NCBI RefSeq assembly: GCF_000166295.1 | Contig: NC_017506.1 | Coordinates: 2,604,001 to 2,668,000 of the forward strand | Direction: 5' to 3' | Length of the DNA stretch: 64,000 bases | Source of the DNA: Marinobacter adhaerens HP15 | Lineage (GTDB): Bacteria; Pseudomonadota; Gammaproteobacteria; Pseudomonadales; Oleiphilaceae | Part shown: one piece after another, positions 3,309-43,909 of the stretch | How positions within the stretch are numbered: position 1 is the stretch's first letter | How the letters are laid out: each line of letters opens with the position of its first letter | Notes under the pieces: model-generated | What the model saw: the letters and a program-made list of their open reading frames with translations, nothing else | Database searches by the model: none | What the model was told of the DNA's origin: nothing | Program-made: the position numbers and the translations under genes

Positions 3309-3414
3309 GAGTGGTGCGTATCCCTTCCCAAAAAACGCTACGAGCACATCCATGGGCGCTTGGCGTCGGCCATCCTTGGCCGCCGACATTTTTGGGAAGG
3401 GATACGCACCACTC
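3309..3414 (-). repeat. GGA double-hairpin element, copy 1
   Basis: A perfect 26-bp inverted repeat (3309-3334 with 3389-3414) encloses a 54-nt core. On the minus strand the core holds two small hairpins: GGCCAAGGATGGCC (octamer at 3371-3378) and one with CATGGATG at 3347-3354. The core is nearly identical (51 of 54) to copy 5 at 43.8 kb, but the outer arms are unrelated, so the stem is kept while its sequence is not. It lies in the 444-bp gap between miaB and phoH, oriented opposite to both genes. Confidence 0.9.
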
Positions 3415-3459
3415 TCCGTCGGCCGCACAGCCGTCTGCTTGGTAGAAACTGCGCATTCA

Positions 3460-3493
3460 TAGGTTGGATTAGACGAAGTCGTAATCCGACCTA
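3460..3493. repeat. Short palindromic intergenic repeat (TAGGTYGGATTA type)
   Basis: Arms TAGGTTGGATTA (3460-3471) and TAATCCGACCTA (3482-3493) pair with one G-U-type mismatch around a 10-nt loop. This resembles a short palindrome I recall as common between genes in many proteobacteria. It separates copies 1 and 2 of the larger element. Confidence 0.6.
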
Positions 3494-3532
3494 CTTGTTT
3501 TTCAACAATCGGGCCTGCACATAGAATAATCA

Positions 3533-3645
3533 GGGCAAGGGCCGGGCGGACTTTCCAAAAACGTGGAGCGCCAGGGATGGCGCGACCGAGCCCTACATGG
3601 ACGTATTCATGGGCGTTTTTTGGAAAGTCCGCCCGGCCCTTGCCC
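3533..3645 (+). repeat. GGA double-hairpin element, copy 2
   Basis: A perfect 29-bp inverted repeat (3533-3561 with 3617-3645) encloses a core of about 55 nt. On the plus strand the core has hairpin GCGCCAGGGATGGCGC (octamer at 3572-3579) and a second hairpin with CATGGACG at 3596-3603. It faces away from copy 1, so the two form a divergent pair. The GGA strand is the sense strand of phoH, whose start is about 70 bp downstream. Confidence 0.9.
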
Positions 3646-3715
3646 GTTAACCGAAAAATAGAAACACCTACTCCCAAACGAGAAACCAGGGGGAGTAAAT
3701 CAAAACGGAGCACTT

Positions 3716-4699
3716 TTGAACGCCAACGATCACAGACAATTTGACCTGCACCCGGTGGACCAGCGTCGGCTGGCGACGCTTTGTGGCCAGTTTGATGAAA
3801 ACCTGAAGATGATTGAAAAACGCCTGCACGTGAAAGTCGGCAGGCGCGGCCATCATATCCGAGTTGAGGGTGAGACCGAGCATGTGGCGGCGGCCGTTGA
3901 GGTTATCCGGCATCTTTATCGGGAAACCGAGGCTACCGATGACCTTCCTCCGGATACCGTGCATCTGTATATCCGGGAAACCGGTTTTGAACGCCTGCCC
4001 GAAGACGTGCCCTACGATGGCGCTGTGACGGTCATCAAGACCCCCAAGCTTCAGGCCAAGCCGCGGGGTGCGAATCAGCAGAAGTATGTGCACAATATCC
4101 GCACCCACGATATCAACTTCGGGATTGGGCCGGCGGGTACCGGCAAGACCTGGTTGGCGGTGGCCTGTGCCGTTGAGGCTCTGAAAGACGAGCAGGTGAA
4201 GCGGATTTTGCTGGTTCGGCCCGCGGTCGAGGCCGGCGAGAAGCTTGGTTTTCTTCCTGGCGATCTCGCGCAAAAGGTCGACCCATACCTGCGCCCGCTT
4301 TACGACGCGCTTTATGAAATGCTTGGGTTTGACCAGGTTACCCGGCTGATTGAGAAAAGCGTGATTGAGATTGCGCCGCTGGCGTTCATGCGCGGCCGCA
4401 CGCTGAACAACTCGTTCATCATTCTGGACGAAAGCCAGAACACCACCCGGGAGCAGATGAAGATGTTTCTGACCCGGATCGGCTTTGGCTCCACGGCTGT
4501 GATTACCGGCGACACCACTCAGGTAGACCTGCCACGGGGTCAGAATTCAGGGCTTATTCACGCTGCCGGGGTTCTGAGCAAGGTATCGGGTATTGGGTTC
4601 ACACGGTTCGAAGCAAAGGACGTTGTTCGGCACCCGCTGGTACAGCGGATTGTTGAAGCCTACGATTCCTTTGACGACGGGAGTGCGACGGGCCAGTGA
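3716..4699 (+). CDS. ybeZ: PhoH-like ATPase (YbeZ)
   Basis: P-loop NTPase of the PhoH family, cytoplasmic, consistently encoded beside ybeY and thought to act with it in rRNA processing. An N-terminal KH-like region (about 1-110) precedes the ATPase domain with Walker A GPAGTGKT at 138-145 (K144, T145) and Walker B FIILDES with D238-E239. The start is a TTG preceded by ACGGAG with a 5-nt spacer; no ATG gives a comparable N-terminus. It overlaps ybeY by 4 bp (GTGA), so the two are translationally coupled. Confidence 0.9.
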
Positions 4700-5170
4700 A
4701 TAAGCTGACTGTGGATTTTCAGCAGGTTTTCGAGGCGCCGGGGATACCTTCGGAGACGCAGGTTCAAAAATGGGCGCAACTTGCCTGGCAGGGCGAGGAT
4801 CCGTCCGAGGTGACGGTCCGTATTGTCGGAACCGAAGAAAGCCAGGCCCTGAATCATCAGTACCGTGGGCGGGACTACCCGACCAACGTGTTGTCCTTCC
4901 CATTTGAGGCGCCAGCCGGTATAACGGTGCCATTGGCCGGAGATCTGGTGATTTGTGCACCGGTTGTCGAGAAAGAGGCCATGGAACAGGAAAAAAAACC
5001 TGGTCGCCCACTGGGCGCACATGGTGGTGCACGGCATGTTGCATCTCCAGGGTTTTGATCATATTGAAGACGAAGATGCCGAGGTCATGGAAGCCCTCGA
5101 AGTCCGACTGCTTGCGCAGCTCGGATTCGGCAATCCCTACGAAGCAGAGGAAACGGAACAAGACTCATGA
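4696..5170 (+). pseudogene. ybeY: Endoribonuclease YbeY, frameshifted in the sequence given
   Basis: YbeY is a metal-dependent endoribonuclease for 16S rRNA 3'-end maturation and ribosome quality control. The first frame (from GTG 4696) runs to about residue 100 with recognisable YbeY sequence ([19 protein letters not shown]). It then turns to nonsense after an A8 run at 4991-4998. Reading with seven A's restores the family's zinc motif [11 protein letters not shown] and a normal C-terminus ending at 5170, where it overlaps corC by 4 bp. The gene is rarely dispensable and its second half shows no decay, so a base-calling error is the likeliest cause. Confidence 0.85.
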
Positions 5171-6012
5171 GCGACGATCAGTCGAGTCGCAGTCAGGGCG
5201 GCAAGTCCTGGCTGGAACGTATATCCCAGGCCTTCTCCAGCGGGCCTGAGTCCGTTGAGGACGTGCTGGAAATCCTGCGGGACGCCGAGTCCCAGAACAT
5301 CATCGATGTTGATGCCATGAGCATCATCGAAGGTGCCATGCAGGTGATCGACATGCGGGTGGATGAGATTATGATTCCCCGCTCCCAGATGGTCACCGTC
5401 AAGGCATCCCAGGAGCCCAAGGAGTTCCTGGGCGAAATCATGGATTCTGCACACAGCCGGTTCCCGGTCATCGGGGACAGCCAGGACGACGTGATTGGCG
5501 TTCTTCTTGCCAAGGATCTGCTTCCACTGGCTCTGAACAACGACCTCAACTGGAATCGTATCCGGGAAATTCTGCGCCCGCCCACTTTCGTACCCGAGAG
5601 CAAGCGTCTGAACCAGTTGCTCAAGGAATTCAAGGAAAACCGTAACCACATGGCGATTGTGGTCGATGAATACGGTGGTACGGCCGGCCTGATCACTATT
5701 GAAGACGTGCTGGAACAGATTGTGGGCGAAATCGAAGATGAGCATGATTTCGATGAAGAGACCCATATCAAGGCCCGGGGCGATGGCAGCTATGCCGTAA
5801 AAGCGGTAACACCCATTGATGATTTTAATGAGTTCTTCGAGACCGAACTGGACGAAGAGGAATTCGACACCATCGGTGGCGTGGTTCTCAAGGAATTCGG
5901 ACACCTGCCCAGACGGGGCGAATCGGTTGAATTCGGCGGTTTGCGCTTTACCATTGCCAACGCCGATAACCGTGTAATCCGTCTGCTGCAGGTAACCCGA
6001 AGTGAACAGTGA
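5167..6012 (+). CDS. corC: CorC/HlyC-family CBS-domain transporter-associated protein
   Basis: 281-residue soluble CorC-type protein, linked in the family to magnesium and cobalt efflux. Two CBS domains (about residues 65-190; first segment [14 protein letters not shown], second with [24 protein letters not shown]) bind nucleotide. A C-terminal CorC_HlyC domain follows (about 200-277, with [21 protein letters not shown]). There is no membrane segment, unlike the larger CNNM/YfjD-type members. The start ATG overlaps the ybeY stop (ATGA), and the end overlaps lnt by 11 bp, so phoH-ybeY-corC-lnt reads as one operon. Confidence 0.88.
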
Positions 6013-7564
6013 CGCGAAAAATACTAGAGCGCTGAAGACCCCGCTTTCCTCAAACGCATTACTTGGCGCAGCAACCCTTCTGGTTGCCGGCGCCATGCAA
6101 ACCCTGACCTTTTCACCGTTCAACCTCTGGTGGCTGGGACCGGTTTCAGTCCTTCTTATTCTCCTCGTGACGGTTCCGCTGGCTCCAGAGAAGCTCTTCC
6201 GGGCCGGTTGGCTTACTGGCCTGGGGCTGTTCGGCAGCGGCGCCAGCTGGGTCTACGTCAGTATCAGCGAACACGGTAATACCGCCATTCCGATTGCCGT
6301 TTTGTTGACGGTTCTCTTTGTTGCAGGGCTGGCGCTGTTCCACGGTCTGGCGTTCTGGTTCTGGGGCAAGCTTGCCAAGGAGAGTCCCGCCCGGCGTCTG
6401 ATACTGTTTCCCGCTATCTGGATACTTGGCGACTGGCTTCGGGGCTGGCTGCTTACCGGTTTTCCCTGGCTGTATCTGGGCACAGCACACACGGACGGAC
6501 CGCTCGCCGGGCTGGCACCTCTGACCGGCGTGCATGGCATCACTTTCTGGATAACGGCCACAGGGGCCGCACTCTACGGGAGTTGGTGGCTCCTGAAACA
6601 CGCCAAGCCGGTTGCTGCAGGCATCACTCTTGCGGTGGCGCTGATTCCCTGGCTGATTGCCCCGGCCATGAACCGTGTCGAGTGGACGGAGCTAAACGAG
6701 GAGCCTACCTCGTTTGCCGCCATGCAGGGCAATATTCCCCAGCAGATCAAATGGGATCCCGAGTTCCTGAAGGATCAGATCGTTACCTACCTCGGCATGA
6801 CCGAGGATCACTGGGACACGGATCTGATCCTGTGGCCCGAGACCGCCATTCCGATCCCTCAGGACCAGGCTGGCAAGATCATTGATCACATCAGTGAACA
6901 GCTGGGCGACAACAGTACGCTGATTACCGGGATACCCTGGTACGGCTTCAGTGACCGTATTGAAGATTTCACGTTTCACAACAGCATCATGGCCATCGGC
7001 AATGGCGAAGGGATCTACCACAAGCAGAAGCTCGTGCCTTTCGGCGAGTACGTGCCACTGCAAAGCGTGCTGCGGGGCCTGATCGGTTTCTTCGATTTGC
7101 CAATGAGCGATTTCAGCCGGGGACCGGCGTGGCAGGATCCACTCAAGGCCAATGGCGTCAATGTGATGCCATTCATTTGCTACGAGGTCGCCTACCCGGA
7201 TTTCGTCGCCTTCAATGCCCGGGGCGCGGGCCTGCTACTGACCATCAGCAACGATGGCTGGTTCGGCGACTCCATTGGCCCGTTGCAACACCTGCAGATT
7301 GCCAGAATGCGGGCTCTGGAGACGGGTCGTTACATGCTCCGCGGCACCAACAATGGCGTCACCGCGATCATTAACAACCGCGGTCAGCTGACCGAAACCA
7401 TCCCCCATTTCGAGCGCGCCACCCTGACTGGCGAGGTATTCACCGCCACCGGCAGCACGCCTTACATGCAGACCGGCTCCTGGCCCGTCCTGACCCTGGC
7501 GGTCATTCTGATTGTCTTTGTCCGGGAGCGGGTCATTCCTCCTGTTTCGGCCAGCGGCTCGTAA
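6002..7564 (+). CDS. lnt: Apolipoprotein N-acyltransferase Lnt
   Basis: Inner-membrane enzyme that adds the third acyl chain to the N-terminal cysteine of lipoproteins. A multi-helix membrane region (about 1-220) precedes a periplasmic nitrilase-fold domain. The catalytic triad is visible as E280 (LILWPETAIP), K343 (KLVPFGEY) and C393 (FICYEVAYPDF). A final helix closes the protein near residue 500. The start is GTG 6002 inside the end of corC. At 520 residues it has family length. The 3' end overlaps ybeL tail-to-tail by 32 bp. Confidence 0.95.
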   Translation: MNSDAKNTRALKTPLSSNALLGAATLLVAGAMQTLTFSPFNLWWLGPVSVLLILLVTVPLAPEKLFRAGWLTGLGLFGSGASWVYVSISEHGNTAIPIAVLLTVLFVAGLALFHGLAFWFWGKLAKESPARRLILFPAIWILGDWLRGWLLTGFPWLYLGTAHTDGPLAGLAPLTGVHGITFWITATGAALYGSWWLLKHAKPVAAGITLAVALIPWLIAPAMNRVEWTELNEEPTSFAAMQGNIPQQIKWDPEFLKDQIVTYLGMTEDHWDTDLILWPETAIPIPQDQAGKIIDHISEQLGDNSTLITGIPWYGFSDRIEDFTFHNSIMAIGNGEGIYHKQKLVPFGEYVPLQSVLRGLIGFFDLPMSDFSRGPAWQDPLKANGVNVMPFICYEVAYPDFVAFNARGAGLLLTISNDGWFGDSIGPLQHLQIARMRALETGRYMLRGTNNGVTAIINNRGQLTETIPHFERATLTGEVFTATGSTPYMQTGSWPVLTLAVILIVFVRERVIPPVSASGS

Positions 7565-8081
7565 CCCGCTCGTAGTAGTGGGAGCCGCAGGCTTCACAGG
7601 GTTCAAGGTGGCTGGTGGCTGTCAGGCAGCGCATATGCCCGCAGTTCAGGCACTGGAACATGCCAGCAGTAGCCACCTCGCCTGAAATGTACTGGCCCAC
7701 TTCCTTGTTTTCCAGTTTCTGTCTGAGTTCCAGAAAGTCGACGACGGTTTTATCAGCAACCGAGAACAAACTGTCCGCCAACTGGTGTTCCAGCAGCGCG
7801 ATATCAAGCTGCAACCATTCGCTCAGGCCTTCACCAGTCTCCTCGACAAAATGCAGCAGGTGTTCAAGATCCCGCTGCAGATAAGCACCCAGGAGGTTTG
7901 CCTCATCCCGGGTCATTTCCTCGAGTTCGTACTCAAACTCCACCGCTTTCTGGACCTCTTCTTCGAGGTTCTGGAGCGATGTTTCTTCCAGGTCATGGAG
8001 ACGCGTTTTTACCCGCTCCAGCATACGGTCGTAAACTTCCAGTGCCTTGCCTGAGAGATGACTTCTTTCTGGTTGTGTCAT
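7533..8081 (-). CDS. ybeL: YbeL-like zinc-ribbon protein (DUF1451 family)
   Basis: 182-residue cytoplasmic protein of unknown function. Residues 10-130 are highly charged and predicted helical or coiled coil. The C-terminus has a four-cysteine zinc ribbon: C144-x2-C147 and C162-x2-C165. The family member YbeL lies next to leuS in E. coli too, which supports the assignment. It is divergent from leuS, with two GGA elements in the 440-bp gap, and its 3' end overlaps lnt on the opposite strand. Confidence 0.8.
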   Translation of the reverse strand: MTQPERSHLSGKALEVYDRMLERVKTRLHDLEETSLQNLEEEVQKAVEFEYELEEMTRDEANLLGAYLQRDLEHLLHFVEETGEGLSEWLQLDIALLEHQLADSLFSVADKTVVDFLELRQKLENKEVGQYISGEVATAGMFQCLNCGHMRCLTATSHLEPCEACGSHYYERVTSRWPKQEE

Positions 8082-8122
8082 ATCGACTCCTTGAATACCG
8101 CAGTCAGGTGCAAGAGCCGCGC

Positions 8123-8216
8123 TGGGGGCCTTCGTGCCGGGACACGCTGTAAATACATCCCTGTAAGCTTGACTGCAGCATCCATGCTGCAGACAGTCCC
8201 GGCACGAAGGCCCCCA
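8123..8216 (-). repeat. GGA double-hairpin element, copy 3
   Basis: A perfect 21-bp inverted repeat (8123-8143 with 8196-8216) encloses a 52-nt core. On the minus strand: hairpin GCAGCATGGATGCTGC (octamer at 8179-8186) and hairpin TTACAGGGATGTATTTAC (octamer at 8156-8163). The core is clearly homologous to copy 4, while the outer arms are unrelated. The GGA strand is sense for ybeL, which starts 42 bp away, so the element could sit in the ybeL 5' untranslated region. Confidence 0.9.
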
Positions 8217-8270
8217 TCACGGTTCCCAAACCTCTGGAACACGCCTGTTGACTCCACTGACTTTGTCTGG

Positions 8271-8379
8271 GGTTCTGGCGGGGATGGCTTCCCGGGACTG
8301 TGAGCAGCATGGATGCTGCGATCAAGCCTACACGGACGTATTCACGGCGTGTCGCGGGAAGCCATCCCCCGCCAGAACC
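8271..8379 (+). repeat. GGA double-hairpin element, copy 4
   Basis: The outer arms 8271-8298 and 8351-8379 pair almost fully, with one bulged G and one mismatch. The core on the plus strand has GCAGCATGGATGCTGC (octamer at 8308-8315) and CTACACGGACGTATTCAC (octamer CACGGACG at 8331-8338). It is divergent from copy 3, as copy 2 is from copy 1. The GGA strand is sense for leuS, about 145 bp downstream, but the likely leuS promoter lies between, so it may not be in the leuS transcript. Confidence 0.88.
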
Positions 8380-8416
8380 TCCCCCATGACTATAAGTCTG
8401 GCACAAGAACAGAAAA

Positions 8417-8454
8417 TTGGCAGACTACCTGTAAAGGCTAGTGTGCGTTAGAAT
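8417..8454 (+). promoter_or_regulatory. Putative leuS promoter region
   Basis: Two overlapping assignments are possible: TTGGCA (8417-8422) with TAGTGT (8439-8444, 16-nt spacer), or TACCTG (8426-8431) with TAGAAT (8449-8454, 17-nt spacer). The block GAAAATTGGC followed by TACCTGTAAAG recurs before queG near 42.04 kb, which suggests a real shared element. Confidence 0.4.
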
Positions 8455-8476
8455 GTTCGGCCCGCTCCGGACGTGA

Positions 8477-11116
<2,640 letters not shown>

Positions 11117-11117
11117 T

Positions 11118-11705
11118 ATGTCCCGGCACTCCGCTCTGAAATCGTCAGCACGCCTGATGCTGACCGCTGTGATGGCGGCGCTGCTTGGTGGTTGCGGATT
11201 CCAGTTGCGGGGTGCGCCACCGGTTTCTTCGGCCCTCGAGCCTCTTGCCGTGGATTGCTCCTCACAGGTGCCCGACACGCTGTGCCGTTCCTTGCGTGAA
11301 CAGCTGAACCTGGGCAATGTCCGTATGGCGCCATTGGCGGAGGCCGACTACATTCTGCGGCTGAAGAACTTCGAGCGTGACCGTCGCGCAAGTGCCATCA
11401 CCGCCCAGGCCGCAGCCGCGGAATACACGCTGCGTCACTCTGTTGATCTTGAAGTAATCAGCGCGGATCGGATTCCCATGGTGGGCACGACACGCCTGAC
11501 CACTAGCGAGAGTTACCGCTACGACGAAACCAACGTGCTGGCAAGACAGCGGGAAGAAGAGACCCTCCGCCAGCAAATGGACGATCGTCTTGCGCAGCAG
11601 GTGATATTCCGGCTGGCACCATTGACCCCGCAGCGCATCGACGCCATCCGGGCGAATTACCAGCGTGAACAGGAAGCCGACGCCCCAGCCACAGGCCAGC
11701 CATGA
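11118..11705 (+). CDS. lptE: LPS-assembly lipoprotein LptE
   Basis: Outer-membrane lipoprotein that plugs the LptD barrel and helps insert lipopolysaccharide. A lipoprotein signal peptide ends in the lipobox LLGGC, with the acylated cysteine at residue 26 and GFQLRG after it, the family hallmark. The rest (195 residues) is a small alpha/beta domain and a charged tail. It lies between leuS and holA, overlapping holA by 4 bp (ATGA), the same order as in E. coli. Its acylation depends on Lnt, encoded just upstream. Confidence 0.92.
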   Translation: MSRHSALKSSARLMLTAVMAALLGGCGFQLRGAPPVSSALEPLAVDCSSQVPDTLCRSLREQLNLGNVRMAPLAEADYILRLKNFERDRRASAITAQAAAAEYTLRHSVDLEVISADRIPMVGTTRLTTSESYRYDETNVLARQREEETLRQQMDDRLAQQVIFRLAPLTPQRIDAIRANYQREQEADAPATGQP

Positions 11706-12709
11706 AGACCAATCCAGGCCAGTTATCCCAGCTGCTGAAAAAGGGCCTTTCGCCCGTCTATCTTATATCCGGGGACGAACCCCTGCTGGTTCAGGAGTGT
11801 TGTGACCAGGTTCGCAAGGCCGCAAAAGACGCCGGTTTTCATGACCGCCTGACCTTTCACGCTGACCACCAACTGGACTGGAACGCCGTTGGTGAGGAAT
11901 TCAGTGCCATGTCCCTGTTCGCGGAAAAACGGCGCATCGAGATTCACTTGCCAACCGGCAAGCTGGGCGACGGCCGCGCGGTACTGGAACGAGTCCTGGC
12001 CGACCCTCCCGACGATATCATCCTCGTGCTCATCAGTGCCCGTCTGGACGCGGCGGAAACCCGCCGCAAATGGTACAAGGAGCTTCAGGGAAAGGGCGTG
12101 CACGTACCGGTGTGGCCCGTCGACGCCGACAAGTTCCAGGGTTGGCTGCAGCAGAGGGCCAGCAACCGCGGCCTTAGCCTGACCCGGGGTGCCCTGGCCA
12201 TCATGAGCGAACGCCTCGAGGGCAATCTGCTCGCCGCGAGCCAGGAGCTCGATAGACTGTCACTGCTCGCAAACGGCAATACCATTGATGAGGAAACCGT
12301 TGAACAGGCGGTCCAGGACAGTTCCCGATTCAATGGCTTTGAACTCGTGACCGAGCTGATCAGTGGCCGCGCGCCCCACGCCGGCAAGATGATCACTGTG
12401 CTTCAGCAAGAGGGAGAAAACCCGCTCGGTTTGCTGTCGGTTCTCAGCCGGGATCTGAACCTGCTGCTTGAGTTGAAATCTGCGGCCGGCCAGTCGGAAA
12501 ATCCCGCCGCATTCCTGAAAAAACGGGGCGTATTCCAGCCGCAACGTGCCCGCGCAATGGAACAGGCCGCTCGCCGGCTGAACCGGAACCAACTGAATAA
12601 GGCCATCACCCTGTGCAGCCAGATCGACCGCGCGGCGAAAGGCTTCGATTCCCTCTCCCCCTGGCACTATTTGCGGGATATGTCTGCCCTGCTGGCCGGC
12701 CGTTCCTGA
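11702..12709 (+). CDS. holA: DNA polymerase III subunit delta
   Basis: Delta subunit of the clamp loader, which opens the beta sliding clamp. 335 residues with the typical N-terminal PVYLISGDEPLLVQE segment, degenerate AAA+ fold and C-terminal helical collar (SPWHYLRDMSALLAG). It starts inside the end of lptE by a 4-bp overlap. No terminator is evident after it, and an apparently independent promoter region for the next small gene begins about 50 bp downstream. Confidence 0.94.
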   Translation: MKTNPGQLSQLLKKGLSPVYLISGDEPLLVQECCDQVRKAAKDAGFHDRLTFHADHQLDWNAVGEEFSAMSLFAEKRRIEIHLPTGKLGDGRAVLERVLADPPDDIILVLISARLDAAETRRKWYKELQGKGVHVPVWPVDADKFQGWLQQRASNRGLSLTRGALAIMSERLEGNLLAASQELDRLSLLANGNTIDEETVEQAVQDSSRFNGFELVTELISGRAPHAGKMITVLQQEGENPLGLLSVLSRDLNLLLELKSAAGQSENPAAFLKKRGVFQPQRARAMEQAARRLNRNQLNKAITLCSQIDRAAKGFDSLSPWHYLRDMSALLAGRS

Positions 12710-12820
12710 TTTGAATCAAACTCAGCCTTCGTTGTGCCCTGTTGGCCCTGCCGGCCCCTTGACAGTTTTTTACGATCGGGCGCATTGTAAGCACACCAAC
12801 AATCCAAGGAGGTGCTTGAT

Positions 12821-13084: not shown

Positions 13085-13126
13085 TACTGTTAACCCGTTA
13101 ACATTACGCCACAAATTTCTAGCCTG

Positions 13127-33898: not shown

Positions 33899-35197
33899 TC
33901 AGGCGTGACCCACGTCCAGCCTGACTGACTTTTCATTCACACCGGCGCGGCTCAACAGCTGATGCCAATCCCGGTTCTGCAGACGCACCTCAACCACCGT
34001 GTCGCCGGTATCCCGGTATTCCTCGCTGATCACCGATCCTGCCTCATGCAAAAGTGCACGCAGTTTGCCATCCGCGGGACCCAGCAGGACAAAGTGGTGA
34101 ACGACGTCTTCGGCCACACGCTCCACGATCGCATCGAACAAGCCGTCCAGGCCTTCGCCAGTAACCGCGGAAACCCACGCTCTCACCGGGATACCCTCTT
34201 CGTTGCGCTCAACCCGAGGCGTGAAATTTTCAAGCAGATCAATCTTGTTGAACACCTGCAGCATGGGAATGTCGTCCGCCCCGATCTCCGCAAGCACTTC
34301 CTCAACCTGCTCAATGTTCTCCTCGCGGCGCGGGTCATGGCTGTCGATGATGTGAAGCAGCAGCGTCGCCTGTGTTGTTTCCTCAAGCGTCGCCCGGAAC
34401 GCCTCAACCAGCTTGTGCGGCAGATGCCGGATGAAGCCCACGGTGTCGGCCATTACGACCGGCCCGACATCCGGAAGTTCCAGCCGCCGCAACGTCGGAT
34501 CCAGCGTGGCGAACAGCTGGTCTGCAGCATATACGGAGGAAGTGGTAATACGGTTGAATAAAGTGGATTTACCGGCGTTGGTATATCCAACCAGCGATAC
34601 GGTGGGAATGTCAGCCCGCTGTCGGGCCCTGCGGCCCTGGTTGCGCTGGCGACGAACCTTTTCCAGACGCTTGTGGATAGACTTGATGCGCTCCCGCAAG
34701 AGCCGGCGGTCGGTTTCCAGCTGGGTTTCACCAGGCCCGCGCAGCCCGATACCACCTTTCTGTCGCTCAAGGTGGGTCCAGCCCCGAACCAGTCGCGTGG
34801 ACATATGCTCGAGCTGCGCCAACTCTACCTGAAGCTTACCTTCGTGAGTCCGTGCCCGCTGAGCGAAGATATCAAGAATCACACCGGTGCGGTCCAGCAC
34901 ACGGCACTTGAGCTCGTGCTCAATGTTGCGCTCCTGGCGTGGGCTCAGGGCATGGTTGAACAACACCACATCCGCTTCGTTCGCCGCTACTGCATCACGA
35001 ATTTCTTCCAGCTTGCCCTCACCAACGAAAAATCTGGGGCTGGGCTGCTTGCGGGACCCGGTAACGGTTGAGACAGGCTCGACACCGGCAGAGGTGACCA
35101 GTTCCCGGAACTCACCGGGGTCTTCGGTACCATCGTGGGCAGTAAAATCGATGTGGACGAGGACCGCGCGCTCACCGACATCAGGACGTTCAAACAA
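33899..35197 (-). CDS. hflX: Ribosome-splitting GTPase HflX
   Basis: GTPase that rescues stalled or heat-damaged ribosomes by splitting 70S particles. The N-terminal HflX domain contains VLFNHALSPRQERNIE. A coiled-coil linker leads to the G domain: G1 GYTNAGKST, G3 DTVGFI, G4 NKID. The C-terminal tail ends KSVRLDVGHA. 432 residues. It lies downstream of hfq, as in E. coli. Confidence 0.95.
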   Translation of the reverse strand: MFERPDVGERAVLVHIDFTAHDGTEDPGEFRELVTSAGVEPVSTVTGSRKQPSPRFFVGEGKLEEIRDAVAANEADVVLFNHALSPRQERNIEHELKCRVLDRTGVILDIFAQRARTHEGKLQVELAQLEHMSTRLVRGWTHLERQKGGIGLRGPGETQLETDRRLLRERIKSIHKRLEKVRRQRNQGRRARQRADIPTVSLVGYTNAGKSTLFNRITTSSVYAADQLFATLDPTLRRLELPDVGPVVMADTVGFIRHLPHKLVEAFRATLEETTQATLLLHIIDSHDPRREENIEQVEEVLAEIGADDIPMLQVFNKIDLLENFTPRVERNEEGIPVRAWVSAVTGEGLDGLFDAIVERVAEDVVHHFVLLGPADGKLRALLHEAGSVISEEYRDTGDTVVEVRLQNRDWHQLLSRAGVNEKSVRLDVGHA

Positions 35198-35315
35198 TTG
35201 GCATCAACTCCGGGGTAAACCCATGATGAGGGTCATAAAAACAAACACCCGCGGCCACAAGACCCCTTGTCGGGATCCTCTGGAACGCGGGTGGCAAGAT
35301 CGGGAAACGGATGGA

Positions 35316-35567
35316 TCAGTCTTCAGACTCGCCCTCTCCTCCCGGAGCCTGCTGCGGAATGCGGACATTTCGGGCAGGAACCACAGTGGAAATAGCGTGC
35401 TTGTAGACCATCTGGCTGACAGTATTTTTCAGCAAAATCACGAACTGGTCGAAAGACTCAATCTGGCCCTGAAGCTTGATACCGTTGACCAGAAAGATGG
35501 AAACCGGAATGCGTTCCTTGCGCAATGCATTGAGGTAAGGGTCTTGTAACGAATGCCCTTTTGACAT
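35316..35567 (-). CDS. hfq: RNA chaperone Hfq
   Basis: 83-residue Sm-like hexameric RNA chaperone for small-RNA regulation. [24 protein letters not shown] opens the Sm1 motif, and [22 protein letters not shown] is Sm2 with the conserved YKHA. The short tail ([13 protein letters not shown]) is of Pseudomonas type rather than the long E. coli tail. AGGAG lies about 7 nt before the ATG. The miaA reading frame, as sequenced, runs 130 bp into this gene in another frame. Confidence 0.97.
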
Positions 35568-36631
35568 GTGTTTTCTCCTGTTTTTAGTAAATGCAGATCG
35601 TCATTTGTCAAAATTAAATGTGGTGCGAAGTCGGATTTTTTCAAGGCTACCTCAGCGATATGTTTGTCGCCGCTGTCCAGCCAGTCCACATCTGACCACT
35701 TGCGCAACCAGGTCAACTGCCGCTTCGCCAGTTGGCGTGTTGCTGCCACTCCCTTGCTGACAAATGTCTCGTAGTCGTCTTCCCCGGACAAATAGCTCCA
35801 GGCCTGGCGATATCCGACACAACGCATGGAAGGGAGATCAGGGTGCAGGTCGTCCCGGATCATCAGAGCCCGAACTTCATCAACGAACCCCGACTCCAGC
35901 ATTTTCAGAAACCGCAGGCGAATCCGCTCATGAAGCACCCGCCGCTCAGGCGGCGTCATGGCAAGTTGAATTACAGTATACGGAAGCAAAGATGTTTCGT
36001 CTGCCTGCCAGCGAGTGAAATAGGTGTAATCCTCAATGTCGCCGACCTGCGCCACTGCCGTCGTTTGCTCACAGGCACCCTGATCGGCTCGCCAGAACTC
36101 CGAAATCGGCTTGCCGGTAAGGCGCAATACCTCCAGGGCCCGCATCAGACGCTGCCGGTTGTTCGGATGGATCCGCTCGGCTGCCACCGGATCACTGGCC
36201 CGCAGCTCTTCATGCAAAGCCTCCCAACCCCGCTCCTCTGCCTCCTGCTCCAGCGCCCGTCGTACGTCGGGGCTGGCGGATGGCAGACCGGACATTCCAT
36301 GCAGCAACGCTTTGAAATACATCATGGTGCCGCCGACTAGAAGCGGGATCCTGCCTGCGGCCGTTATTTCGGCCATGGCGGTCAGCGCGTCCCGACGGAA
36401 ATCCGCAGCGGAGTATGTTTCCGCCGGATCGCAGATATCAATCAGCCTGTGGGGCGCCCGCGCGAGCTCTGCGGCCGTGGGTTTGGCCGTTCCGATATCC
36501 ATACCCCGATAGATCATTGCGGAATCTACGCTGATGATGTCGCAAGGCAGGTGGTCGCAGAGCGCCATGGCCAGGTCGGTCTTTCCGGAAGCCGTGGGCC
36601 CCATCAGAAAGATGGCAGGAGGCAGTGGCAC
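35438..36631 (-). CDS. miaA: tRNA dimethylallyltransferase MiaA (3' end uncertain)
   Basis: Adds the dimethylallyl group to A37 of tRNA, the first step before MiaB. P-loop GPTASGKT at 11-18, then [16 protein letters not shown] and [16 protein letters not shown]. The start is GTG 36631, 1 nt after the mutL stop. The frame gives 397 residues, about 70 more than the family, because it continues through the first 130 bp of hfq. If the A6 run (35636-35641, minus strand) had five A's, the protein would end at 35614 with about 339 residues, leaving a normal gap to hfq. I favour that reading. Confidence 0.85.
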
Positions 36632-36632
36632 C

Positions 36633-38542
36633 TCAGCGCCCCCGGAGAAACAGCTTGTCCAGCTCAGACATGGTCACCAGGGTCCATGTCGGCCGGCCAT
36701 GGTTGCACTGGCCACTGCGCTCGGTCGCCTCCATGTCCCTGAGCAGCGAATTCATCTCGGGAATGGTCAACTGCCGGTTGGCACGCACCGAACCATGGCA
36801 TGCCATGGTGCCGAGCAGCTCATGCGTCACCGCCTCGACGCGATCACTCTGACCGTGCTCAATGAGATCCGCCAGAACGTCACGCACCAGCTGTTCTGTG
36901 TCAGCACCCCGCAGAAGCGCGGGCACCTGCCGCACGGCGAGGGTTTCCGGACCAATCCGCTCAATCTGGAGACCCAGCTTCTGCAGTTCTTCACCGTGAC
37001 TCTCGGTCAGGGCGGCTTCTTTTGGCTGACCGCCAGCGACAGCGGCACCAGCAACGGCTGGCTTTTAAGGTCCTGCTCGGCAAGCGCCCGCTTCATTCGC
37101 TCATAGGTAATGCGCTCGTGGGCCGCGTGCATGTCCACAACAATGAGCCCCGCACGACCCTGGGCAAGAATATAGATCCCGTGCAGCTGGGCGATGGCAT
37201 ATCCGAGCGGCGGCTCCTGGTCACTGTCTGCAGGCGGTGTTGGCATTGGCGTGGCGGCGCGATCGCTTACGGGCATGGCCTGCTGTCCGTCGCTCCCGCC
37301 ACCGGCATTCAGGGACTGATAAAACGCCATCTGATCGCTGGCGCGCCACTCCTGTTGGGGCTGCGACTGTCCGCCAAAGCCAGCGCCTGAGCCGCCGGGG
37401 TAACCATAGCTGGATACCGATGGCTGGCCGTTCCAGCCCGCCTCTGCAGAGGCACCGGTGGCCGGAACGGCTTCCTGACCCTGGGTGACTGCTTCGCGAC
37501 CAAAGGACTGCGCCACCGCGCCGCGGAAATGATCGTCCGGCCGGACATCGGCCAGCGCCTTGTGCAGGGTTCTGAAGATGAAATCGTGAACCAGCCGACC
37601 ATCCCGGAACCGGACCTCGTGCTTGGTCGGGTGGACGTTTACATCGACGGTGGCGGGGTCGACTTCCAGATACAATACAAACGCCGGGTGCCGGTTATTG
37701 TAGAGCACATCCCGATAGGCCTGGCGCACGGCATGAGCTACCAGGCGGTCACGAATAACGCGGCCGTTGACGAAGAAATACTGAAGATCGGCCTGGCTGC
37801 GCGAAAATGTGGGAAGAGCGACCCAACCCCACAGGCGCAGCCCGGTGGCCTCCGCATCAATAACCACCGCGTTATCGATAAACTGCTGGCCGCACAGGGA
37901 TCCAATCCGACGCTCGCGATCGAGGGCCGATTCCGCTGGCCTGAGGCTTTGAACGACACGCTGGTTATGGCGCAACGTGAAGCCGGCATCGAAACGGCTC
38001 AGCGCTTGGCGCCGCACACATTCTTCGACGTGATTGAATTCTGTCTTTTCAGTACGCAGGAATTTGCGGCGAGCCGGGGTGTTAAAAAACAGGTCGCGCA
38101 CTTCAACGGTCGTTCCGACAGGGTGCGCTGCCGGCGAAATTCTCGCGTCCATTTCCCGGCCCTCGACCTCGACCCGAGAGGCCGCTTCCTGCGACTCGGT
38201 CCTTGAGGTCAGGGTAAGACGAGAGACAGAGCTGATACTGGCAAGCGCTTCTCCCCGGAAACCCAGGGACGCCACGGCTTCCAGATCGTCCAGACTGGCA
38301 ATCTTGCTGGTCGCATGGCGGCTTAGCGCCAGGGGAAGATCGTCTTCCTCAATACCACTGCCGTCATCCCGAACTCGAATCAGCTTGACGCCGCCCTGCT
38401 CCACCTCAACATCGACGCGGTTGGCGCCGGCATCCAGGGCATTTTCAACCAGTTCTTTGACGACAGACGCGGGGCGCTCAACCACCTCACCCGCGGCAAT
38501 CTGGTTCGCGAGCCGTGGTGACAGCAATCGAATGGGGGGCAT
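36633..38542 (-). pseudogene. mutL: DNA mismatch repair protein MutL, frameshifted in the sequence given
   Basis: MutL couples MutS mismatch recognition to repair. The N-terminal GHKL ATPase is complete: [42 protein letters not shown]. The variable linker is Gln/Gly/Ser-rich, and the C-terminal dimerisation domain begins with [26 protein letters not shown]. The frame stops at 37007 after SQKKPP. A single G missing near 37019 would continue it as [15 protein letters not shown] into a second frame, ending LDKLFLRGR at 36633. As given, the C-terminal domain is cut; error or true mutator allele. Confidence 0.88.
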
Positions 38543-38562
38543 GTTACAGAAAAACCTCTTGA

Positions 38563-39921
38563 TCAGGACGCGGGAATACGAATGGTTTGCCCTACCATAA
38601 CACGGTCGTCCCGAAGGTCGTTAAACTGCATCAGCTCACTGACGGTCGTCTGATTTTTCCGGGCCACGCCGGATAGCGTGTCTCCACGCTGTATCCGGTA
38701 GTGACTGATGCTGTTTTCACCCTGGCGATTCTGTTTTTGCCACGCCAGCAGGGTTCCAGGCGGCGGCGTTTTCTGGAAGTAGTCATCAATGCCTTTCATG
38801 ATGGCGCCGGCCAGCTTGTTGCGATACCACTCAGTGGCCAGGTTTTTCTCTTCCTGGGGATTCGATATGAAGCCCGCTTCCACGAGGATGGAGGGAATAT
38901 CCGGTGATTTCAGAACCGCAAAAGCGGCCTGCTCCACGCCAGGCTTGTGCAACTTCGCCACGCCGCCCAATTTGCCCAGGACCGAACTGCCAACCCCCAG
39001 ACTGGCGTTGATACTGGCCGTCATGGAGAGGTCCAGCAGAACACCGGCAAGCATGTCGTCACGGCCATCAAGGGACAGCCCGCCGGCACCGCCGATCAGA
39101 TCCGACCGGTTCTCACTATTGGCCAGCCAACGGGCAGTTTCACTGGTGGCGCCGCGTTGGGAAAGGGCGAAGACCGAGGCACCTTTGGGTTGTGGTGTAC
39201 GGAAGGCGTCGGCATGGACCGAGACGAACAGGTCAGCGCTGTATTTCCTGGCCAGAATCGTGCGATTGCGAAGGCCAATGTAGTAGTCCCCGGTTCTGGT
39301 CAGCTTGGCGGTATAACCCGGCCGATCATTGATGAGGTTGGCCAGGGTTTTCGCCATTTTCAGAACCACGTCCTTTTCACGGGTTCCCCGCGGACCAATA
39401 GCACCCGGATCTTCCCCGCCGTGCCCGGCATCAATGACCACAATAACGTCCCGCTTCCCGGATGAATCCTGGGTCACGGTGGGCGTTGTCGCCTTTTCCA
39501 GCCGGCTACCGCTTTCATCAATCAGGTCGACCACCAGTCTGTGGCCGTACTGCTGATTCGGCTCGAGCTGAAAACTCCGCGGTTTGATGTCAGCCTTGAG
39601 ATCCAGAACGACGCGCAAATCGGTGCCGTTTCTGGGGGCACTGCGGATTCTCTTGATCGGACTGCCGGAAAGGTCCAGACCGGAAAAATCGGTCTTCAGG
39701 TTGGCATTCTTGAGATCGATCACCAGCCGCGCCGGGCCGCTCAGGGAGAAAATGTTGTGCTCCACCTGCCCGCCAGTGTCCAGCACCAGCCGGGTATGAT
39801 CGGGCGCGGGCCAGATACGGGCACTCTCGACCTGTGTCGCCGCCGAACCGTGAAACGCCAATGTCACAAGCAATAGCGCAATCGGCCAAACCAGTTGTTT
39901 ACTCAGCTTTGCACAATTCAT
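38563..39921 (-). CDS. amiB: N-acetylmuramoyl-L-alanine amidase AmiB
   Basis: Periplasmic zinc amidase that splits septal peptidoglycan at division. From ATG 39921: a signal peptide to about residue 27, an AMIN domain (about 30-125) for septal targeting, Amidase_3 catalytic domain with [15 protein letters not shown] and [12 protein letters not shown], and a C-terminal LysM ([23 protein letters not shown] to IRIP). 452 residues. The frame stays open to 40125 over tsaE, but that part has no signal-peptide character. Gene order tsaE-amiB-mutL is conserved in E. coli and Pseudomonas. Confidence 0.93.
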
Positions 39922-39959
39922 AAAGCTTACCTGCCAGTTTATTCCCGGTTCCGAGCTCA

Positions 39960-40457
39960 CTATGACGCCGGACCAATCAACTCCAGTTCGTTCAGCACCC
40001 CGGCGCCCAGCTCTGAGCGGGCCCTGAGGACTACAGAGCGCCCCTCTCCCCGGGTTTCGAGATGAACCTCCAGGTCCGGCTCGGGCAATATGCCCTTGCC
40101 TCTCTCGGGCCACTCGATCAGGCACAGGTTTTCGGCGGAAAAATAATCGCGGATGCCCATGTATTCCAGTTCTTCGGCGTCGCCCAGGCGATAAAGATCA
40201 AAATGGTATGTCGGTGGATTCAGAGTCTCGTAGGGCTCTACCAGGGTATAGGTCGGGCTCTTTACGGCCCCCTCATGACCCAATCCGCGCATGACGCCCC
40301 GACTGATGGTGGTTTTACCCATGCCAAGCTCACCATCCAGATAAACAACCAGGCCATGGCCAGACTCCACGACGGTCCTGGCCAGCTCCCGACCGAGATG
40401 CTCGGTTTCGGCCTCGTTCTCCAGAAAAACCCGACGCTCGTTACCCATTATGCTCAT
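39960..40457 (-). CDS. tsaE: tRNA t6A biosynthesis ATPase TsaE
   Basis: 165-residue P-loop ATPase needed with TsaB, TsaC and TsaD for N6-threonylcarbamoyl-A37. Walker A GELGMGKTT, then SPTYTLVEPYE and the HFDLYRLGDAEELEYMG segment, all typical. It overlaps the nnr stop by 4 bp (ATGA). Confidence 0.93.
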   Translation of the reverse strand: MSIMGNERRVFLENEAETEHLGRELARTVVESGHGLVVYLDGELGMGKTTISRGVMRGLGHEGAVKSPTYTLVEPYETLNPPTYHFDLYRLGDAEELEYMGIRDYFSAENLCLIEWPERGKGILPEPDLEVHLETRGEGRSVVLRARSELGAGVLNELELIGPAS

Positions 40458-42007
40458 AACGATTCAGCCCCCGGACTCCTTTCAGATTCCCGAAACACCG
40501 ACGGCAGCGCATCGATGACATCGGTCGGTATCAGCCCGATAAACCCCGTGGTTCTCGCAGCACGGTCAGCCGCAGCAAGGTGCACGGATGCGCCCAGCAC
40601 GGCCGCTTTCTGTCCGTCGCCAATCTGAGCCAGAACAGCCGCAACAATACCTGAGAGCACATCTCCCATTCCGCCAGTCGCCATTCCGGGATTGCTGCCA
40701 CTGATGATATCCAGGCCGCCGTCCTCAGACGCGACAACGGTGCCGGCGCCTTTCAAAAGCACCGTGCCGCCGTAAAGCGCCTGCAGCATTCTGGCGGCGG
40801 CCATCCTGTCTGCCTCAACCTCGGGTACCAGGCAATTCAGCAACCTGGCCGCCTCGCCCGGATGAGGAGTCAGGATGTGATTATCTGCCGGGATGGCTAC
40901 CCGACCAGACAAAAGGTTCAGCGCATCCGCATCCAGCACCCTCGGCTTGCCGCTGGCAACCACCTGCTCGAGCATCTGCTGGCCCCAGGCGCTTCGCCCG
41001 ATACCCGGGCCACACACGACAACCGAGGCAGCATCAAGCAACGTCGGCAACTCCGAGCCATGAATCAGTCCATGAACCATGACGGATGGACATCTTGCCA
41101 GGGCCGCTGTCACATGCTCGGGGCGGGTTGCCAACGACACGAGCCCGGCACCCGATCGCGCCGCAGCCTCTGCCGCCAGCAGACCTGCCCCGCCGAATCC
41201 GCGATCACCCGCAACCACCAGCACATGCCCGAATCTTCCCTTGTGAGCGTTGGCAGGCCGGGGTGGTAGCCAGGGCATCACAGAACCCCAGTCACGACGG
41301 CGGGCGATAGGCTTCTGGCCGCTATCGGCGATACCCTCGTCTGTATCCAGAGATTCGAAAACCACCTCGCCGCACGCTGCTGCACCTTGCCCCGTGAACA
41401 AGCCAGCCTTGAGCCCGATAAAGGTCACTGTCCTGGCCGCATTAACCACATCCCCCTCGGCCGCTCCCGTGGTCGCATTAAGCCCGGAGGGCAGATCCAC
41501 CGCAAGGACAGGCGCTGAAGCGCTGTTACACCGGCTTATCAGAGTCGCAAAGGGTTCCCGGGGGGCACCGGACACGCCAGTACCGAGCATAGCATCAACA
41601 ATCAGGCCCGCGCTGGCAAACAGATCACCCAGCGATGACTCGCCGAGAGCCTCGAGGTCAAGAACATCGACACCGTCCGCCAGGGCCTTTTGCCAGGCTT
41701 TACGGGCGTCGCCGGACAATTTGCCGGTTGGCGCAACCGCGACACAGCTGACGTCCAGACCGTGCCTTTTCGCACTTGCCGCGACCAGGTAACCGTCACC
41801 ACCGTTGTTACCCGCACCGCACAGGACCAGCACCGAGCCGCAGTTTGGCCAATGCCGTACCAGGCAGCGAAAAACGGCGTGGGCGGCGGACTGCATCAGT
41901 TCAAAACCATCAACACCTTGCTGATCAATCACATAGCGATCGATCTGCCTCACCGCATCGGCGGAAAACAGTGCGTCTGGTAGACTGTGCCCAGCGGACG
42001 GCGGCAT
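40454..42007 (-). CDS. nnr: Bifunctional NAD(P)H-hydrate epimerase / ADP-dependent dehydratase
   Basis: Metabolite-repair enzyme that rescues hydrated NADH and NADPH. The N-terminal YjeF epimerase domain (about 1-220) has LCGAGNNGGDGYLVA and VDAMLGTGVSG. The C-terminal ribokinase-like dehydratase domain (about 235-505) has VVAGDRGFGGAGLLAAEAAARSGAG, LTPHPGEAARLL and the NPGMATGGMGDVLSG nucleotide site. 517 residues. It is the first gene of the minus-strand operon and is divergent from queG. Confidence 0.94.
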   Translation of the reverse strand: MPPSAGHSLPDALFSADAVRQIDRYVIDQQGVDGFELMQSAAHAVFRCLVRHWPNCGSVLVLCGAGNNGGDGYLVAASAKRHGLDVSCVAVAPTGKLSGDARKAWQKALADGVDVLDLEALGESSLGDLFASAGLIVDAMLGTGVSGAPREPFATLISRCNSASAPVLAVDLPSGLNATTGAAEGDVVNAARTVTFIGLKAGLFTGQGAAACGEVVFESLDTDEGIADSGQKPIARRRDWGSVMPWLPPRPANAHKGRFGHVLVVAGDRGFGGAGLLAAEAAARSGAGLVSLATRPEHVTAALARCPSVMVHGLIHGSELPTLLDAASVVVCGPGIGRSAWGQQMLEQVVASGKPRVLDADALNLLSGRVAIPADNHILTPHPGEAARLLNCLVPEVEADRMAAARMLQALYGGTVLLKGAGTVVASEDGGLDIISGSNPGMATGGMGDVLSGIVAAVLAQIGDGQKAAVLGASVHLAAADRAARTTGFIGLIPTDVIDALPSVFRESERSPGAESL

Positions 42008-42038
42008 GAACCTTTGCTCCCGTTACAGAAACCGGTTT

Positions 42039-42084
42039 AAGAAAATTGGCCAGATACCTGTAAAGCATAGCAAAACAGTAGAAA
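42039..42084 (+). promoter_or_regulatory. Putative queG promoter block similar to the leuS one
   Basis: GAAAATTGGC, then TACCTGTAAAG at 42055-42065, and a TAGAAA at 42079-42084. The 11-mer TACCTGTAAAG is identical to that before leuS at 8426-8436, with the same GAAAATTGGC upstream at equal distance. Confidence 0.35.
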
Positions 42085-42154
42085 AGGTCATAACTTAATC
42101 AGATTAAATATCCGTACACGGGTTCAGCACCGAATTCCAGCATCGGCAGTCACT

Positions 42155-43234
42155 ATGAGCACCACAGCAACCTGTACCACGACACACCCGGAACTTGCGG
42201 ATCTGCCGTCGCTCATCCGCCAGTGGGCAGCTGAATTCGGGTTTGCCGATGTGGGCATTACCAACGCGGACACGGGCGAGCACGCCGACCATCTGAAGGA
42301 CTGGCTTGCGGCAGGTTACCAGGGCGAAATGGATTACATGGCCCACCACGGTGACAAGCGCTATACGCCTGCCTCTCTGGTGCCGGGCACCACGCGGGTT
42401 ATATCCGTGAGAATGGACTATTTGCCCTCACCAGACAGTCCGAAAGAAGCGCTTACTAACCGTGAGAGTGCTTATGTCACCCGTTATGCGCTGGGTCGGG
42501 ATTACCACAAACTGATCCGCAAGCGTCTTGCACAGCTGGCAGCCAAGATTGATGAGGCCGTTAGCGGATACGATTACCGGGCTTTTGTAGACAGCGCTCC
42601 GGTGCTGGAACGCGCACTGGCGCAGAGAGCGGGTCTCGGCTGGATCGGCAAGAACAATATGCTGATTCACCCGAAGGCCGGCTCGTTCTTTTTCCTCGGG
42701 GAAATCTTCACCAGCGCCCCCCTGCCCATTGATGAACCCTTTGAAACGGATCATTGCGGCAGCTGTTCGGCCTGCCTCGACCTTTGCCCGACGGACGCCT
42801 TTGTTGGCTCGCACAAGCTTGATGCCCGACGTTGCATCAGCTATCTCACCATCGAGCTGAAAGGGAGTATCCCAGAGGAGCTGCGACCGCTTATGGGCAA
42901 CCGGGTTTTCGGTTGCGATGACTGCCAGCTGGTGTGTCCATGGCAGAAGTTCAGCAAACCGACCAGCGAAAAGGACTTTCAACCGAGGCACGGGCTGGAC
43001 AACAGTTCCCTGGCAGAGCTTTTTCTCTGGACCGAGGAGCAGTTCCTTAAACGCACCGAGGGCTCTGCGATTCGGCGAACAGGCTACGAGGGCTGGCTCC
43101 GCAACCTGGCGGTCGGGCTGGGCAATGCGCCGTCAACCATTCCGGTAATTGAGGCCCTGAAAAAGCGCGCGGACCACCCTTCCGAGATGGTCCGCGAGCA
43201 CGTCCAGTGGGCCCTGAAGCGGCATGGCCTATAG
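42155..43234 (+). CDS. queG: Epoxyqueuosine reductase QueG
   Basis: Cobalamin- and iron-sulfur-dependent enzyme for the last step of queuosine synthesis in tRNA. Two 4Fe-4S motifs are visible, [12 protein letters not shown] and [10 protein letters not shown], and the N-terminal segment [10 protein letters not shown] and [11 protein letters not shown] fit the family. A HEAT-like C-terminal portion closes the 359 residues. Divergent from nnr, convergent with orn (6-bp overlap of the ends). A shared promoter-like block with leuS lies upstream. Confidence 0.94.
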
Positions 43235-43771
43235 CTTGAAGAATTGTTCCCGGTAATGACGCAGTTCGTTGATGGAGTCCCGGATGTCGTCGAGTGCAAG
43301 GTGGCTACCTTTCTTTTTTACGCCGGCGAGGACATCCGGGCGCCAGCGGCGAGCAAGTTCTTTCACTGTGGATACGTCGAGATTCCGGTAATGGAAGAAG
43401 CCCTCCAGCTCGGGCATGTATTTGACGAGGAACCGGCGATCCTGGCCAATGCTGTTGCCGCACAGGGGTGACTGGCCTTTCTCTACGTGTTTTTTCAGGA
43501 ATTCGATGGTCTGCTGTTCGGCTTGAGACTCGGAGATATCGCTTTCCTGAACGCGTTTGGTCAGTCCGCTTTCACCATGGGTACGGGTGCACCATTCGTC
43601 CATAGAGTCCAGAAAGGATTGTGGCTGATGGACGGCAATAACCGGTCCTTCCGCGACAATATTGAGTTCCGAATCGGTGATGATTGTGGCCATTTCGATG
43701 ATCCGTTCTTTTTCCGGATCCAGGCCTGTCATTTCCAGATCGATCCATACGAGGCGATTGCTTTCTGCCAT
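43229..43771 (-). CDS. orn: Oligoribonuclease
   Basis: 3'-5' exonuclease of the DEDDh class that clears 2-5 nt RNAs, including pGpG from c-di-GMP breakdown. The acidic motif [19 protein letters not shown] is at the N-terminus, [16 protein letters not shown] and [11 protein letters not shown] supply the remaining acids and histidine. 180 residues. Relevant to the FimX/EAL c-di-GMP genes later in the window because it finishes c-di-GMP turnover. A GGA element lies about 30 bp upstream of its start. Confidence 0.96.
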
Positions 43772-43801
43772 TTTGTTACCAGCCTTCTGAGTGCGGTGGT
43801 A

Positions 43802-43909
43802 GTGGTGCTGGGTCCGGCTTTCCGGAAACCGCTACGAGCACATCCATGTGCGCTTGGCGTCGGCCATCCATGGCCGCCGACATTTCCGGAAAGCCGGACC
43901 CAGCCCCAC
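43802..43909 (-). repeat. GGA double-hairpin element, copy 5
   Basis: 27-bp arms (43802-43828 and 43883-43909) pair with one mismatch around a 54-nt core. On the minus strand: hairpin GGCCATGGATGGCC (octamer at 43865-43872) and hairpin GCACATGGATGTGC (octamer at 43841-43848). The core matches copy 1 at 51 of 54 positions, yet the arms are different. It lies between orn and rsgA (divergent), with its GGA strand sense for orn and about 30 bp from the orn start. Confidence 0.9.

Follow-up and report, generated by a model that had tools for sequence, protein, structure and literature searches.

Five intergenic elements in a stretch of the Marinobacter adhaerens HP15 genome belong to a dispersed repeat family with at least 85 copies in that genome, each copy presenting two small hairpins with GGA in their loops. 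The stretch, hereafter the window, comprises 64,000 nucleotides (C1:2604001-2668000) of a genome of 4.65 Mb, whose phoH has its closest matches in records named as Marinobacter, a single metagenome record labelled Halomonas aside. To judge from the sequences, the loops and the fold of the GGA-bearing strand are constrained in every gene context. We regard binding of CsrA by RNA of this strand as the most likely explanation, because the letters of the loops and the strand-specific fold both coincide with the CsrA rule. That the loops are kept for this reason, the GGA strand binding CsrA when it is transcribed, is a proposition that we hold to be evenly balanced.

The element family, its loops and its outer stem

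A preliminary description of the window, made from its letters, had reported five copies with two GGA hairpins each (Table 1). The elements are real: their positions and strands were confirmed, as were the ten octamers of the pattern CANGGANG and their spacing, which is 24, 24, 23, 23 and 24 nt in elements 1 to 5. Both hairpins are present in every copy, but the description missed the dominant feature, a long and nearly perfect Watson-Crick stem that the two small hairpins cap. Its bounds for element 4 are possible only with one bulged base, the gapless stem being shorter, and its statement that the opposite strand lacks GGA is correct for the cores (none in any of the five) and incorrect for the whole elements, which hold one to three GGA each in their arms. 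Taken singly, octamers are about as frequent in the window as chance predicts (46, with 46.4 expected). As doublets with 12-20 nt between them they occur 95 times genome-wide, compared with 7 for the reversed pattern; 12 of the 95 are not copies recognised by the covariance model described below, and most of these look coding. RNA folding of the five elements beats that of shuffled sequences on either strand (z -7.9 to -10.6).

A covariance model (R1) was built from a seed alignment (A1) of 28 copies of this genome, picked by the octamer pattern, in which octamer letters 3-6 (NGGA) of each loop were masked. The genome was searched with R1 at E values up to 3e-9, with 150 of 2104 first candidates scored. 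The copies recovered, at least 85, are about 100-120 bp in length, and in all 85 the GGA hairpins stand side by side on a single stem. Two pairs among them are duplicated segments, each counted singly, and a further copy at C1:3553329 matches the octamer pattern by eye and is absent from the R1 list. In A1, 98.1% of cells are paired, 17 of 24 pairs have changed on both sides, and five covariation measures all lie above every one of 500 shuffles and every slid version.

GGA is present in 170 of 170 loops of these 85 copies, though it was hidden from R1. Many loops lacking GGA, which the preliminary description had named as evidence against its proposal of CsrA-type loops, were not encountered. 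All four bases occur before GGA. Among the letters visible to R1, A at octamer position 2 is kept in 170 of 170 loops and C1 and G8 in 169 of 170, a constancy that is partly built in, since R1 could see the letters outside NGGA; the loop finder also scores C1, A2 and G8 favourably, and gives GGA no reward. Position 7 is free in hairpin 2 (T 48, C 32, A 4, G 1), and A2 is also kept in the 37 of 85 copies in which this position of hairpin 2 is not T. At least two CANGGANG octamers are found in 83 of the 85 cores, and the remaining two hold GGA in both loops. The pattern fits the CsrA/RsmE octamer consensus at fixed and free positions alike. CsrA is a reasonably probable ligand of the loops.

The outer stems are 16-33 bp long (median 26 bp) and their sequence varies from copy to copy, around an inner edge in common (often CTTTCCAAAAC) and a weakly G-rich outer part. 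Median arm identity between copies of this genome is 50% (3570 comparisons), and the two identical arm pairs are both duplicated segments with like flanks. To go by the aligned copies, the arms remain complementary as their sequence changes and can change in concert. Copying of the arms from the target site is disfavoured as a general rule, orthologous arms differing by matched changes (by eye). Common ancestry by itself, that is, a decaying repeat whose GGA loops have yet to change, would account for three neighbouring copies with nearly identical cores; it is nevertheless most improbable, because the arms and the hairpin stems have diverged and GGA has not, and because 34 of 38 copies in named genomes (see below) have at least two octamers, with GGA lost in two. 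Four elements of this genome (C1:3751223, 3754409, 3758449 and 3979306, three of them within 7.3 kb) have nearly identical cores and differing arms. The idea of cores moving independently of arms is weakened, the arms of 3751223 and 3754409 being 81% alike.

Mismatches within the arms distinguish the two strands. On the GGA strand, G.T outnumbers A.C by 55 to 11 in 4004 pairs (85 own and 69 other copies; p 4e-8), both outside the stretch covered by R1 (20 to 1 in own copies, 18 to 2 in others) and within that stretch (9 to 3 in own copies, 8 to 5 in others). A second Marinobacter genome, G010, gives 21 to 1 in 1722 arm pairs (64 copies), and the 38 copies in named genomes give 6 to 2 within the model stretch. 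The copies are kin, so that p values are too small; the direction of the asymmetry repeats across the sets. Since strand-symmetric mutation alone predicts equal numbers of G.T and A.C, the fold of the GGA strand is probably under constraint, as RNA or as single-stranded DNA. This agrees with the earlier choice of the GGA strand as the relevant one, and it disfavours the strand-symmetric DNA cruciform that had been offered as an alternative.

Table 1. Positions in the window of the five elements and their hairpin octamers
Feature	Position	Strand	Description
Element 1	3309..3414	-	miaB-like/phoH-like gap (names inferred from Pfam); 26-bp outer stem, two GGA hairpins
Element 1, hairpin-1 octamer	3371..3378	-	CAAGGATG
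Element 1, hairpin-2 octamer	3347..3354	-	CATGGATG
Element 2	3533..3645	+	Divergent partner of element 1
Element 2, hairpin-1 octamer	3572..3579	+	CAGGGATG
Element 2, hairpin-2 octamer	3596..3603	+	CATGGACG
Element 3	8123..8216	-	DUF1451/leucyl-tRNA synthetase gene gap (Pfam)
Element 3, hairpin-1 octamer	8179..8186	-	CATGGATG
Element 3, hairpin-2 octamer	8156..8163	-	CAGGGATG
Element 4	8271..8379	+	Paired divergently with element 3; stem without gaps at 8280-8369
Element 4, hairpin-1 octamer	8308..8315	+	CATGGATG
Element 4, hairpin-2 octamer	8331..8338	+	CACGGACG
Element 5	43802..43909	-	RNase_T exonuclease gene/rsgA-like gene gap (Pfam)
Element 5, hairpin-1 octamer	43865..43872	-	CATGGATG
Element 5, hairpin-2 octamer	43841..43848	-	CATGGATG, within ACATGGATGT

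Spread between genomes, divergent pairs and rearrangement

The family extends through the genus: all 24 same-genus genomes searched carry copies (3-125 each), and a fuller search of G010 found 143, so that the range in Marinobacter is 3 to 143 per genome. Over 25 Marinobacter genomes the matches number at least 1,742. Copies occur in 3 of 13 other genomes of the same order, in 56 of 369 genomes sampled from the class and in 14 of 299 sampled from the phylum, all 14 belonging to the same class; R1 counts in these large samples are lower bounds, with 13 or 16 candidates scored per genome. A plasmid search with the core consensus gave one partial match and a phage search none.

The architecture is the same in 69 copies from relatives and distant genera, taken from 82 matches after 13 weaker opposite-strand echoes had been left out. 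Among these, GGA has been lost from hairpin 1 of L098 and hairpin 1 of L228, and one L226 copy is truncated; the loops of L123, L231 and one L232 copy are altered with GGA still there (by eye). All 64 distinct copies read among the 143 of G010 have at least two octamers. At sites in named genomes, 58 matches were reduced to 38 copies by setting aside those of the window (five), echoes on the opposite strand (12) and three matches that were weak or at an edge (in L131, L127 and L140). These 38 have two octamers in 33 cases, three in one and a single octamer in four, of which two lost a GGA and two keep it in a changed loop (by eye).

Neighbouring copies less than 450 bp apart in the M. adhaerens genome are minus then plus in 9 of 9 cases, and the same holds for 22 of 22 close neighbours in G010, whose gaps are 65-230, the next gap being not below 901. 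Close pairs are divergent in 31 of 31 cases across the two genomes, although the majority of copies stand alone. The spacer of elements 1 and 2 holds a second palindromic repeat (AGGTTGGATTAGACGAAGTCGTAATCCGACCTAC, window positions 3461-3494), and repeats of its kind are also present in several G010 pair spacers, often as inverted doublets.

The gap between the DUF1451 gene and leuS carries elements at 10 of 19 loci with leuS in reach. By eye, similar arms there enclose a plus-oriented core in L130 and L133, an inverted one in L135 and a hybrid in L127. The L127 hybrid (4664-4722) and the L135 inverted core (10155-10234) look like products of recombination, either within hairpin 1 or via the arms. 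Genome G104 has 11 near-identical copies (loci L235-L245; 11 of 13 matches, two with other arms being left out), in which the element is the cargo of a unit resembling a miniature inverted-repeat transposable element (MITE). The unit ends in CAGCCTGTCGGACTT; at three loci (L236, L242 and L245) these ends are exact and enclose 196 bp. Two of three arm changes among these copies are found in both arms, one of them a one-base length change, and the third in a single arm; in 2 of 11 the element block lies the other way round between its flanks. These paired changes and flips, in G104 and at the DUF1451-leuS loci, speak for copying from one arm to the other and for inversion by way of the arms, and single loci compared by eye suggest that a core can be inverted within similar arms. 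Arm complementarity would then be kept at least partly by such copying, and the same copying would invert cores; the G104 copies would be a natural record of arm-to-arm correction in palindromes. In genome G578, a 227-bp unit with an element and a TGTAGGAGCGGCTTCAGCCGCGAT hairpin stands in six tandem copies (L314 448-1812).

Gene context and candidate explanations

Gene classes were taken from a simple gene caller, with starts uncertain by tens of nucleotides, and 83 of the 85 copies were classed: 41 in tandem gaps, 27 in convergent and 15 in divergent ones. Single copies show no preference for the 3′ over the 5′ side of the nearest gene (33 and 32), and the side bias of the full set (51 and 32) arises from pairs. 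The 3′ flanks of the elements in this genome are A-rich and T-poor whatever the context, weakly so in distant genera. Just 5′ of element 2, window positions 3495-3524 (TTGTTTTT ... GGCCTGCACATAG) resemble several Marinobacter loci by eye, and because of this similarity the phoH transcript may start near the left arm of element 2.

Of the 83 classed copies, 52 have the 3′ end of a gene no more than 60 nt away, and convergent gaps are over-represented: they account for 23 of 74 classed regions with elements and for 4 of the 43 gaps without them that measure at least 120 bp in the stretches fetched. Both would be expected of a two-way transcription stop or a protector of mRNA 3′ ends, for which any long stem after a stop codon suffices. 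We consider this improbable, because it leaves the two GGA loops and the strand asymmetry unexplained and because 15 of the 83 copies stand between divergent genes. Nor do the 85 own copies, read in the GGA direction, as a rule show the T run of an intrinsic terminator beyond the stem: five of them have TTTT within 60 nt on that side, compared with 25 when read in the opposite direction.

In the explanation that we prefer, CsrA binding, the GGA strand would be transcribed by way of 3′ or 5′ untranslated regions, read-through or antisense transcripts, and the outer stem would yield a stable RNA with both of its sites open to a single CsrA/RsmA dimer. Taken together, the numerous copies would be a low-level, distributed CsrA decoy and not switches of individual genes; as a statement of function the decoy is tentative. 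The M. adhaerens genome has two csrA genes, and csrA is found in 52 of the 56 element-bearing genomes of the class sample. Among genomes at least 90% complete, it was found in 46 of 47 with elements and in 234 of 267 without elements found (Fisher p 0.04). This co-distribution is consistent with CsrA and no proof; it is only suggestive of a requirement for CsrA.

Several observations weigh against CsrA binding. The strongest is orientation-independence, which fits a strand-specific element of single-stranded DNA better. Of the 41 copies in tandem gaps, 21 have a GGA strand that is sense to the two flanking genes and 20 one that is antisense to them, with similar arm mismatches (16 of 548 pairs in sense copies, 12 of 496 in antisense) and a similar excess of G.T over A.C (6 to 1 and 7 to 1). 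With sense and antisense copies similarly constrained, no dependence of the constraint on transcripts of the neighbouring genes is visible, and ordinary mRNA-borne CsrA sites, proposed in the preliminary description, are disfavoured as a general rule. The strand asymmetry is weaker in distant genera by themselves (G.T 13, A.C 6). When 28 pair spacers were scored for sigma70-like promoters, the one kind covered, no excess was detected (best scores averaged 7.21, compared with 7.42 for shuffled sequence); the spacers came from 20 of the 22 G010 pairs and the nine own pairs, with one of less than 40 nt omitted, and single copies were counted for simple motifs only. Element 4 is upstream of a conserved promoter-like leuS sequence (by eye). 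The association of elements with csrA is weak and probably confounded with reduced genomes. In one genome, G233, which is 98% complete and in 270 contigs, there are four element matches, the single one read having intact loops, and no CsrA above the cut-off; three less complete genomes likewise have elements with CsrA not above the cut-off.

The copies might instead be strand-specific hairpin elements of single-stranded DNA, dispersed or selfish and independent of transcription, whose GGA loops are read by a DNA-handling protein (a transposase, recombinase or replication protein). Such an element would accommodate the orientation-independence of both the copies and their constraint, the high copy numbers in Marinobacter, the uniformly divergent close pairs, which resemble inverted doublets of repetitive extragenic palindromic (REP) sequences, and the partly flipped MITE-like copies of G104. 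G.T also pairs better than A.C in DNA. It is the chief rival of CsrA binding; we nevertheless think it rather unlikely, because the loops fit the CsrA/Rsm octamer at fixed and free positions, and because PF01797 (Y1 transposase) has no match in the M. adhaerens genome or in 11 of 24 same-genus relatives, including G024 with its 122 elements; G004 has 22 PF01797 matches and 6 elements. Furthermore, with the only identical arm pairs lying in two duplicated segments, no recent jump of the element alone was seen. A REP-type transposase was rejected on the PF01797 matches, and mobilisation of the REP type is not supported.

Returning to CsrA, a genome-wide distributed decoy in its full form is a doubtful proposition. 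In that form 85-143 copies, independent of orientation, would supply up to 286 sites; they would multiply, invert and let their arms drift through arm-to-arm copying, and the host or the element would keep both CsrA loops of the GGA strand. If this were true, a family of repeats would determine how much of a global RNA-binding regulator is free. Either a dispersed repeat family buffers CsrA activity or some process acting on DNA imitates the rule by which CsrA recognises its sites, and both readings are testable in culturable Marinobacter.

Relation to TwoAYGGAY and other known systems

The window gave no match to Rfam at gathering scores. At a permissive threshold the elements of relatives match RF01731 (TwoAYGGAY); the long stem also drew microRNA and Yersinia small RNA matches, which we regard as chance. 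All five copies of the window fall short of the curated RF01731 cut-off of 43 bits; two sibling copies elsewhere in the genome, near-identical and from one duplicated segment, pass it with 44.7 and 43.6 bits. At E values up to 0.01, with 54 of 203 candidates scored, RF01731 has 8 matches in this genome, compared with 85 for R1; two of them are above the cut-off, and the five that were printed are all R1 copies. RF01731 is found above the cut-off in 8 of 38 genomes. By the Rfam rule the five window copies are relatives of TwoAYGGAY, not members. The elements very probably belong to a family of the TwoAYGGAY kind: they share with it two hairpins with GGA loops side by side on one stem (85 of 85; L120 aligned to the model), a poorly conserved outer stem and occurrence in Gammaproteobacteria, and some copies of the family exceed the RF01731 cut-off. 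Near an element of another genome (L120 1771-2057) there is also a strong Rfam match to 5_ureB_sRNA (117 bits).

In the passages that describe it, TwoAYGGAY is probably an RNA and probably not cis-regulatory, found in human gut, Gammaproteobacteria and Clostridiales (Weinberg 2010; PMC2864571), and a later text proposes that it sequesters CsrA, with validation described as in progress (Gardner and Eldai 2014; PMC4333381). The sequestering idea has been in print since 2014 and hence is not new; among the excerpts returned by our literature search there was no published test of it. The literature passages on the motif make no mention of dispersion, pairs or flips, and words of the core sequence gave an unrelated match only in paper texts. 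What is new is the copy number (3-143 in each Marinobacter genome), arms able to change together, the inversion of cores within them, close pairs that are always divergent, the G.T excess on the GGA strand and the lack of a sense or antisense preference. TwoAYGGAY has been an orphan motif with one hypothesis since 2010, and to view it as a high-copy, strand-specific, orientation-independent repeat shifts what needs to be explained.

The GGA hairpins matching the CsrA octamer are shared with CsrB/CsrC and RsmX/Y/Z. Those RNAs place many sites in one gene, whereas the elements have two sites per copy in many dispersed copies, and no promoter of their own was detected (sigma70-like scoring of the 28 pair spacers). 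The available text on Alcanivorax small RNAs names two that are CsrA-related, and the word TwoAYGGAY is absent from it (PMC9788540). The R178 repeat of P. fluorescens, described in part of PMC2718517 as intergenic, 101 bp long, with 11-bp internal inverted repeats and 9-28 copies per strain, is alike by description alone. With REP and REPIN sequences, as portrayed in PMC3116915, the elements have in common that they are short intergenic palindromes of high copy number with inverted doublets; they differ in their length of about 100-120 bp, in arms that vary between copies and in having no match to a Y1 (RAYT-type) transposase in their own genome.

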